DNA from: Deltaproteobacteria bacterium RIFOXYA12_FULL_61_11
Lineage (GTDB): Bacteria > Bdellovibrionota_F > JAHFAK01 > YA12-FULL-61-11
Direction: 5' to 3'
NCBI GenBank assembly: GCA_001799195.1
Contig: MGSU01000334.1
Span: 1 to 10,319, forward strand
DNA length: 10,319 nucleotides
Position 1 is the stretch's first letter; the number at the start of each line of letters is the position of its first letter. The translations under genes were made by a program, and so were the position numbers. The notes under the pieces are model-generated. The model was not told the origin of the DNA. It searched no databases and was given only the letters and a program-made list of their open reading frames with translations. This document shows, in pieces, positions 2,927-5,803 of the stretch.

Positions 2927-3400
2927 ATGCCGAGAAGAAGGGAAGTCCAGAAACGGAAGATCCTGCCGGATCCCAAGTACCATGACGTGATGGTCACCAA
3001 ATTCGTCAATGGGTTGATGAAGCAGGGCAAGAAGAGTGTCGCCGAGAGCATCATGTACGGCGCCCTTGATTTCATCGCCGAACACGAACGTCGCGAAGGC
3101 CCCCTGACGGTCTTCAAGACCGCCATGGAGAATGCCAAACCGGTCATCGAGGTCAAGTCCCGCAGAGTCGGCGGTTCCACCTATCAGGTTCCGGTCGAGA
3201 TCCGGGCGAACCGTCGAGAGTCCTTGGCGGTACGCTGGTTGATCGATTTCGCTTCCAAGCGTCCCGGCAAGAATTTCGGTGAGAAATTGGCCGGTGAGTT
3301 GTTGGACGCTTACGACAAGAAGGGCATGACGATTAAGAAGCGCGAGGATGTGCACAAAATGGCCGAAGCGAACAAGGCCTTTGCGCACTACCGTTGGTGA
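2927..3400 (+). CDS. rpsG: 30S ribosomal protein S7 (uS7)
   Basis: S7 is a primary 16S rRNA-binding protein that nucleates assembly of the 30S head and contacts the E-site tRNA. The 157-aa product has the usual short-form length, begins MPRRRE, and carries [18 protein letters not shown] at 76-93, which includes the RNA-binding beta-hairpin. It ends with the typical helix [15 protein letters not shown] (143-157). In enterobacteria S7 represses its own operon by binding the rpsL-rpsG spacer. Here that spacer is only 28 nt with no evident extended structure, so control of that kind would have to act elsewhere. Downstream, fusA and tuf are missing and rpsJ starts 10 nt after the stop. Confidence 0.98.
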
Positions 3401-3410
3401 GGCTGGTACC

Positions 3411-3719
3411 ATGAACAACGACAAGATCAGGATCAAGCTCAAGGCTTACGACCATAAGCTGCTCGACCAGTCGACCAAGTCGATTACCGACACGGCGAGA
3501 CTGACCGGAGCGAAAGTGGTCGGACCAATCCCTTTACCGACCTCGATCAATCGGTACACCGTGTTGCGCTCGCCGCACATCGACAAGAAGTCCCGCGAGC
3601 AGTTCGAAATGCGAACTCATAAACGTCTCATCGAGATCCAGGAGCCCAACCAACAGACCGTGGACTCCCTGATGAAGCTCGACCTCTCGGCGGGCGTGGA
3701 TGTAGAGATCAAGCTCTGA
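3411..3719 (+). CDS. rpsJ: 30S ribosomal protein S10 (uS10)
   Basis: S10 is a 30S head protein and, as NusE, also a component of transcription antitermination complexes. The 102-aa product shows the family core [19 protein letters not shown] (39-57) followed by [19 protein letters not shown] (58-76). The ATG at 3411 is chosen over an in-frame ATG at 3348, which lies inside rpsG. GAGG, formed by the last two bases of the rpsG stop plus GG (3399-3402), is an 8-nt-spaced Shine-Dalgarno. Because rpsG precedes it by 10 nt there is no room for an S10 leader of the enterobacterial kind that L4 uses for attenuation. The next gene is rplD, not the expected rplC. Confidence 0.98.
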
Positions 3720-3751
3720 GCCGGCTGAGCAGTAGAAGGAAGGAGATCGGT

Positions 3752-4369
3752 ATGGACAAGCTTCCGATGTACAATGCCCAGGGGCAGCTCATGGGTGAAC
3801 TCGAGGTCAAGGATGGTTTCATCCTCGACGAGCCAAAGACTCACCTCTTCCATGAGGTAGTCCGGGCGAAATTGGCAGATCGCCGCCAGGGCACGGCCGA
3901 CACGAAAGAACGCTCCGATGTGCGCGGCGGCGGCAAGAAACCCTACCGACAGAAAGGCACCGGACAAGCTCGCCGGGGCACCTCTCGCTCTCCGATCATG
4001 CCCGGCGGCGGAACGACCTTCGGACCGCACCCTCGCAGTTACCACTTCAAGATCAATAAGAAGGTCCGCGGGTTGGCTGTACAATCAGCACTTTCGTTGA
4101 AGCTTCTGGAAGAAAAGCTCATCGTCGTCGATTCGCTGAACTTAACCGAACCCAAGACCAAGAAGGTCGTCGAACTCCTCGCGAATTTCAAGGTCCAGAA
4201 GGCCCTGTTCATTGATCAGGCGAATGACCTCCTGATGTTGTCGGTGCGCAACCTCCCGCGCAGCCGCTACCTCGATTGCAGGGCTCTCAACGTCTACGAC
4301 CTCCTCGCGTTCGACCATGTCATCATGTCTTCCAACGCCTACAAAGCGTTGGAAGAACGTTTTTGCTGA
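3752..4369 (+). CDS. rplD: 50S ribosomal protein L4 (uL4)
   Basis: L4 is an early-assembly 50S protein whose extended loop lines the peptide exit tunnel next to L22. The 205-aa product has normal length. The tunnel loop is visible at residues 59-81, with GGGKKPYRQKGTGQARRG and then TSRSP, followed by GGGTTFGPHPRSY. The C-terminal Rossmann-like half (about 110-205) contains RNLPRSRYLDCRALNVYDLL. The ATG at 3752 has a strong AAGGAAGGAG site just upstream. Only 32 nt separate it from rpsJ, with no space for the usual rplC. In enterobacteria L4 represses the S10 operon through the S10 leader; that leader is absent here. Confidence 0.97.
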   Translation: MDKLPMYNAQGQLMGELEVKDGFILDEPKTHLFHEVVRAKLADRRQGTADTKERSDVRGGGKKPYRQKGTGQARRGTSRSPIMPGGGTTFGPHPRSYHFKINKKVRGLAVQSALSLKLLEEKLIVVDSLNLTEPKTKKVVELLANFKVQKALFIDQANDLLMLSVRNLPRSRYLDCRALNVYDLLAFDHVIMSSNAYKALEERFC

Positions 4370-4378
4370 GGTAGGATC

Positions 4379-4675
4379 ATGCAGAGCGACATCTACCGCA
4401 GAATCGTCAGACCTATCCTCACCGAGAAGTCGCACGATCTCACCGACCTGCACAACAAGGTCGTTTTTGAGGTCGATCCGAACGCGAACGTTCTCGAGGT
4501 GAAGAAGGCCATCGAACAGATCTTCAAGGTCAAAGTCATCAAGATCAATTCGATGAATTTCCGTGGCAAAATCAAGCGCATCGGACGATTTGCCGGACAG
4601 CGCAGGAATTGGAAGAAAGTCATCGCCACCCTGAAGGAAGGAGACGCCATCAACTTCTTCCTCGAGGGTGTATAA
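4379..4675 (+). CDS. rplW: 50S ribosomal protein L23 (uL23)
   Basis: L23 lies at the tunnel exit and is the docking site for trigger factor and SRP. The 98-aa product begins with the family segment IVRPILTEKS (9-18); E16 aligns with E. coli E18, the trigger-factor contact. The long basic loop FRGKIKRIGRFAGQRRNWKK (about 61-80) enters 23S rRNA, and the end is LKEGDAINFF. The rplD stop TGA plus GG supplies the GAGG Shine-Dalgarno, with the start 9 nt after the stop, which suggests translational coupling. The stop is TAA. Confidence 0.97.
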   Translation: MQSDIYRRIVRPILTEKSHDLTDLHNKVVFEVDPNANVLEVKKAIEQIFKVKVIKINSMNFRGKIKRIGRFAGQRRNWKKVIATLKEGDAINFFLEGV

Positions 4676-4690
4676 GAACGGGGGCTCGTC

Positions 4691-5515
4691 ATGAAGAAGT
4701 TCAAGCCGACCTCACCGGGTCAGCGCTTCAAGACCATGTTGGATTTCGGGAGTTTGAGCAAGAAGCGTCCCGAGAAGGCCCTGACCGAGGGTCTCTGCAA
4801 GAAGTCCGGCAGGAACGTCAACGGTCGCATCACCTGTCGGCACCACGGCGGAGGGCATAAGCGACTCTATCGGATCATCGATTTCCGGCGCGACAAGCTC
4901 GACGTCCCGGGCAAGGTCACGGCGATTGAGTACGATCCCAACCGCAGCGCGAACATCGCGCTCATCACCTATGTCGACGGTGAGAAGCGCTATATTCTCG
5001 CTCCCGAAGGTCTCAAGGTTGGGGACAAAGTCATGTCCGGCGAGAATGCCGACATCGCCATCGGGAATGCCCTGCCGCTCAAGCGTTTACCGCTCGGTTC
5101 GATCATTCATGCGGTCGAACTCAAGCGAGGCAAGGGAGCCCAGATTGCCCGCGGTGCGGGAACGCAATGCCAACTCCTGACCAAGGAAGAAAAATACTGC
5201 CATGTCAAGTTGCCTTCCGGGGAGGTCAGGCTGGTACTCGCAGAGTGCTATGCCACCCTTGGCCAGGTTGGCAATCTCGAACACGGTATCGTCAGCATCG
5301 GCAAGGCCGGGCGGAGCCGCTGGATGGGTATCCGGCCGAGCGTCCGCGGAGTGGCAATGAACCCAGTCGACCATCCGCTCGGCGGTGGCGAAGGCAAAAC
5401 CTCGGGCGGCAGACATCCCTGCACTCCCTGGGGCAAACCGACCAAGGGGTACAAGACCAGGTCCAATCTCAGGACGGACCGGTTCATCGTCCAACGGTCC
5501 AAGAAGAAGAGATGA
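4691..5515 (+). CDS. rplB: 50S ribosomal protein L2 (uL2)
   Basis: L2 binds 23S rRNA domain IV, is needed for subunit joining and lies close to the peptidyl-transferase centre. The 274-aa product is full length: KPTSPGQRF (5-13), [20 protein letters not shown] (45-64), [13 protein letters not shown] (80-92), the C-terminal [20 protein letters not shown] (207-226) and a basic tail. The functionally critical His of the DHP motif (H228, equal to E. coli H229 in mature numbering) is kept. The following position, normally the second His of HPHGGGEG, is Leu (L230). The linker [15 protein letters not shown] follows, a form with the short TSGG insertion seen in several bacterial groups. It lies between rplW (15 nt gap) and rpsS (9 nt gap). 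Confidence 0.98.
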
Positions 5516-5524
5516 GGTGGCAGC

Positions 5525-5803
5525 GTGGCTAGGTCTGTAAAGAAAGGTCCGTTCATCGACGATCATCTGTTGAAGAAGGTCGGCGTGGCAAATGATAACA
5601 AGAGCAAGACACCGATCAAGACGTGGTCACGTCGCTCTACAATAGTGCCCGATATGGTCGGTCTGACCTTCGCGGTGCACAACGGCAAGAAGTTCGTGCC
5701 CGTATACGTGACCGAGCAACTGGTCGGTCACAAATTGGGTGAATTCTCGCCGACTAGGCAGTTCCACGGTCATTCCGGGGACCGCAAAACCAAGGCTAAG
5801 TGA
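5525..5803 (+). CDS. rpsS: 30S ribosomal protein S19 (uS19), GTG start
   Basis: S19 is a 30S head protein that contacts S13 and the A-site finger of 23S rRNA. The 92-aa product begins with the universal [10 protein letters not shown] and contains [26 protein letters not shown] and [13 protein letters not shown]. The GTG at 5525 is the only start that gives the conserved N-terminus. GAGGTGG (5514-5520), overlapping the rplB stop, provides the ribosome-binding site. The gene follows rplB by 9 nt and precedes rplV by 8 nt. Confidence 0.98.

Follow-up and report, generated by a model that had tools for sequence, protein, structure and literature searches.

An S10 operon without rplC: the gene for ribosomal protein L3 lies elsewhere in the genome, in a recurrent and lineage-linked arrangement

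The stretch of DNA analysed here (the window, 10,319 nucleotides; G000:C334:1-10319) carries a series of ribosomal protein genes, all on one strand, with rpsL starting at 2527, rpsG at 2927, rpsJ at 3411, rplD at 3752, rplW at 4379, rplB at 4691 and rpsS at 5525. Behind rpsS come rplV-rpsC-rplP-rpmC-rpsQ-rplN-rplX-rplE-rpsN-rpsH-rplF, the order from rplW to rplF being canonical, as the first-pass annotation of this DNA had it for the rest of the operon. The identities of rpsJ and rplD were established by profile, and the remaining operon genes were read from their translations. Upstream of rpsL there are three open frames (1-579, 722-1267 and 1332-2258) with no Pfam match. Between rpsG and rpsJ lie 10 nt (3401..3410, + strand), without the fusA and tuf genes that many bacteria carry at this position; the genome has them on other contigs, with two EF-G genes that score over cut-off, on C111 and on C105, and one gene for EF-Tu on C332.

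The last gene 5' of the junction under study is rpsJ (ribosomal protein S10; 3411..3719, + strand), which matches PF00338 with 131.7 bits, and TIGR01049 and NF001861 over their full length. Its likely start is the ATG at 3411, giving a protein of 102 aa that is full-length to NF001861 (the mechanical ORF start is at 3348), and its stop codon, TGA, was read at 3717-3719. On the other side, rplD (ribosomal protein L4; 3752..4369, + strand) starts with the ATG at 3752 and codes for 205 aa that match PF00573 (221 bits) and TIGR03953 (234 bits), and with rplW (L23; 4379..4675, + strand, from the ORF list, with homologues that were found and used in the tree) the canonical order resumes. The usual slot of rplC is thus reduced to an intergenic junction of 32 nt (3720..3751, + strand), whose sequence was read as gccggctgagcagtagaaggaaggagatcggt and which includes a Shine-Dalgarno motif, AAGGAAGGAG, ahead of the rplD ATG. 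The first-pass annotation, which had reported rplC missing between a stop at 3719 and a start at 3752, with an intact ribosome-binding site and no L3 remnant, was right to the base: there is no remnant of L3 in 3720-3751, since 32 nt are too short for a coding one. Such a junction is more than chance, because the gap between rpsJ and rplD spans 617-991 nt in the controls, which have rplC in between, versus 32 nt in the window.

Where is L3 encoded, then? It had been expected elsewhere in the genome, and a search of the whole draft (4.64 Mb in 342 contigs, 87% complete, 1.23% contamination) with the Pfam L3 profile gave a single match, on contig C12, in a frame open without stops. The gene (L002:9030-9674, + strand, contig G000:C12) codes for 214 aa, and its product matches the bacterial uL3 equivalog model TIGR03625 over residues 5-209 of 214 with 271.6 bits (cut-off, 142.9). 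This intact gene rules out that L3 has been lost, so that of the "targeted loss or relocation" suggested at first, the relocation stands and the targeted loss falls. The gene stands outside any ribosomal operon, among non-ribosomal neighbours: upstream, on the opposite strand, a gene for a Kazal-domain protein (L002:7710-8630), and downstream, a gene for an M50 peptidase that starts 12 nt after L3 and, beyond it, a gene for a MauG-type peroxidase. The first of these proteins has several Kazal-type inhibitor domains, and another protein encoded near L3 (L002:13498-16950) contains cysteine-rich repeats, as read from its translation; both are unusual beside a ribosomal protein gene. A scan for the sigma-70 consensus upstream of the relocated gene gave no promoter-like site, which is weak evidence either way.

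The quality of the draft (its fragmentation, its incompleteness and its contamination) speaks for an artefact, namely that rplC was dropped between rpsJ and rplD in the assembly and that the L3 gene on C12 comes from a contaminant. The GC content of C12, which exceeds the window's (0.625 and 0.569, respectively), and an L3 tree that does not place the L3 of this genome with that of its class relative, G001, would fit the same explanation. However, C12 is the nearest to the window in tetranucleotide usage among 61 long loci (r = 0.888; next, 0.813), and the junction has clean flanking genes besides its ribosome-binding site. Furthermore, the best pairwise score of the C12 protein, among the loci compared, is with the L3 of G001. 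Taken together, the tetranucleotide match and this best score argue that the C12 gene is most likely the organism's own and only L3 gene, and it is predicted to be the working one.

The sole other genome of the window's phylum in the comparison is G001, in which S10 and L4 adjoin on one contig, 70 nt apart in profile coordinates. Its L3 is on a different contig, where it lies next to a gene for a pseudouridine synthase and faces a relA/spoT gene, and no conserved new L3 neighbourhood common to G000 and G001 was found. The rplC-less junction is therefore common to both genomes of the class, and the new site of L3 differs between them. The same junction in this independent genome, together with the rplC-less arrangement in dozens of others, some of them in a single contig, leaves an assembly or binning artefact with hardly any credibility. 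An engineered deletion, which the first-pass annotation had also considered, is rejected in view of the class relative and of the many independent genomes with the same junction.

How widespread is this arrangement? The prevalence was taken from a sample in which most families are represented by a single genome, with 121 genomes having both S10 and L4 among the matches listed, a set that leans to better-scoring S10/L4 matches. Among these, rpsJ abuts rplD in 18 of 121 genomes (~15%; 66-230 nt in profile coordinates), a gene-sized insert of 665-1035 nt separates S10 from L4 in 102, and in one the operon is split, rpsJ itself being elsewhere. Eighty named loci were retrieved through the similarity of their L4, and in six of them the junction is without rplC (L032, L037, L058, L062, L075 and L096); all six are labelled Myxococcota or Deltaproteobacteria, and each of their genomes has one L3 elsewhere. 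The state is even more common in the phylum of G253, which is probably Myxococcota, judging from the tree, where it groups with named Myxococcota: rplC is missing from 29 of its 30 junctions and, by position comparison, 53 of 54 genomes have L3 and L4 apart, the exception being G303, where they are adjacent. In G302, a single contig, L4 is at 0.287 Mb and L3 at 1.958 Mb, i.e., 1.67 Mb apart in record coordinates. The statement that "nearly all" bacterial S10 operons contain rplC was, given the 18 of 121 genomes without it (among the matches listed), too strong. The order rpsJ-rplC-rplD is not nearly fixed in bacteria, as L3 is encoded elsewhere in some 15% of the genomes sampled and in almost every genome of one phylum.

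The history of the rplC-less state was followed on a tree of eight S10-operon proteins (116 genomes, 1194 columns), in which the window's genome and G001 pair (SH-aLRT 97) inside a 13-row group (SH-aLRT 97) with three named Myxococcota. The state occurs in 25 rows, all of them among the 58 rows of one tree half and none among the other 58. It takes ~14 changes on the tree, at least 7 of which are forced by well-supported branches, and ~14 is below the number reached in each of 500 shuffles (mean 23); with fewer changes than the shuffles, yet several, the state is clustered but not single. When all 25 rplC-less rows are held as a single clade, the resulting tree is rejected (p-AU 4.35e-6). The relocation of rplC is recurrent and lineage-linked. 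The idea of the first-pass annotation that it could serve as a lineage marker holds insofar as both genomes of the phylum share the state and it is near-universal in the neighbouring phylum of G253, but, since the state has changed several times, the rplC-less junction alone is a noisy marker with a loose signal.

The confinement of all 25 cases to one tree half would also agree with a single ancient relocation, common to all rplC-less lineages, after which rplC returned to the operon in some of them. The weakly supported grouping of several relocated L3 in the L3 tree, and the recurrence of an L3 gene followed by a gene for an FtsJ/RlmE-like methyltransferase, would fit it as well. Nonetheless, the changes forced on supported branches and the rejection of the single clade speak against it, the neighbours of relocated L3 differ between lineages, and, operon replacement by transfer apart, it seems more likely that the gene left several times than that it came back to precisely its ancestral slot. 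We regard a single relocation as unlikely, and favour repeated exit.

The L3 tree itself is poorly resolved, with 8 of its 47 inner branches well supported. In it, the L3 of the window's genome belongs to a group of five with the relocated L3 of three Myxococcota genomes (SH-aLRT 84, modest), and is not paired with the L3 of G001. That the two are unpaired here, while the concatenated operon proteins of the same genomes are paired with a support of 97, might indicate that an L3 gene transferred horizontally from another lineage has taken the place of the native rplC, the latter having been lost. Against such a replacement stand the few well-supported branches of the L3 tree, the grouping with Myxococcota, which is the same neighbourhood as that of the operon proteins, and the best pairwise match to the class relative among the loci compared, all of which make it improbable.

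Some of the new neighbourhoods of rplC in other genomes have features of their own. An FtsJ-family methyltransferase gene (Pfam) lies directly 3' of the relocated rplC in three named Myxococcota genomes, G041, G043 and G044 (pairs at L132:6906-8238, L135:6601-8082 and L137:6306-7668), and the methyltransferase of G041 has its best NCBIfam relatives in the RrmJ/RlmE models, without reaching their cut-offs. The pair of rplC and an FtsJ/RlmE-like methyltransferase gene is also present in 10 of the 30 L3 loci from the phylum of G253 (L226, L228, L232-L234, L238, L239, L241, L246 and L251). In G045 and G046, a conserved gene run precedes the relocated rplC (L134:314-5290 and L136:1893-7269; 72, 66, 61 and 29% identity), and the new site is therefore old in that lineage. 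Could rplC have left the operon repeatedly, as sampled on one tree half only, and have settled in part beside the gene for an RlmE-like 23S rRNA methyltransferase? We consider this combined proposition unlikely; if true, it would point to an L3 supply that is under a control separate from that of L4 and L23 and is linked instead to a step of 50S maturation.

For the window, the explanation is almost certainly that rplC left the S10 operon at some point in this lineage's ancestry and is kept intact at an unrelated chromosomal site as a normal L3 gene, its transcription unit alone having changed. The gene would have been duplicated or transposed to a new site, after which the operon copy would have been deleted. 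The operon would then have closed up, with rpsJ and rplD read in tandem and rplD preceded by its own Shine-Dalgarno motif, so that what remains of the operon could be translated independently of rplC. The relocated gene is probably transcribed alone or together with the M50 peptidase gene that follows it after 12 nt. In E. coli, the S10 operon as a whole, L3 included, is under the control of L4 through the S10 leader RNA; once relocated, L3 needs a control of its own, and it would now be regulated separately from L4. An Rfam scan for leader RNA gave no family over threshold in the window or in L002, which, this far from E. coli, is not counter-evidence to such control. The case is one of ordinary genome rearrangement, and neither of protein loss nor of artefact.

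In the open-access literature searched, no paper was found to report an rplC gene that lies outside the S10 operon; the main survey, by Coenye and Vandamme (2005; cited in PMC2837039), which reportedly deals with the organisation of S10/spc/alpha, lay outside that search. The rplC-less arrangement is widespread, and we do not claim that it is unreported. It has consequences for operon-based annotation and for phylogenies that take the order of operon genes as a character, as well as for those models that require the co-transcription of L3, L4 and L23 for a balanced early 50S assembly. As for published accounts, a paper on the unusual S10 locus of Leptospira lists rplC in place (PMC2481283), and, according to a study of 113 genomes, most of these conserve the S10 region (PMC2837039).

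Compared with the canonical S10 operon (rpsJ-rplC-rplD-rplW-rplB-rpsS-rplV-rpsC-rplP-rpmC-rpsQ), the window has every gene except rplC, ordered and co-directional, and differs in the slot without rplC and in the location of rplC on another contig. In the genome G005, rpsJ is at C20:2087-2371 and rplC-rplD are together at C49:74927-75909. This split operon resembles the window in that linkage was lost at the operon 5' end but, unlike in the window, it is rpsJ that stands apart while rplC and rplD stayed joined. The pair of rplC and a methyltransferase gene, seen in G041, G043, G044 and the G253 phylum, is absent in the window's genome, where the M50 peptidase gene is found instead. The closest likeness is with the rplC-less loci of Myxococcota and Deltaproteobacteria and with the G253 phylum, in which, as in the window, rpsJ is followed directly by rplD and L3 is encoded elsewhere.
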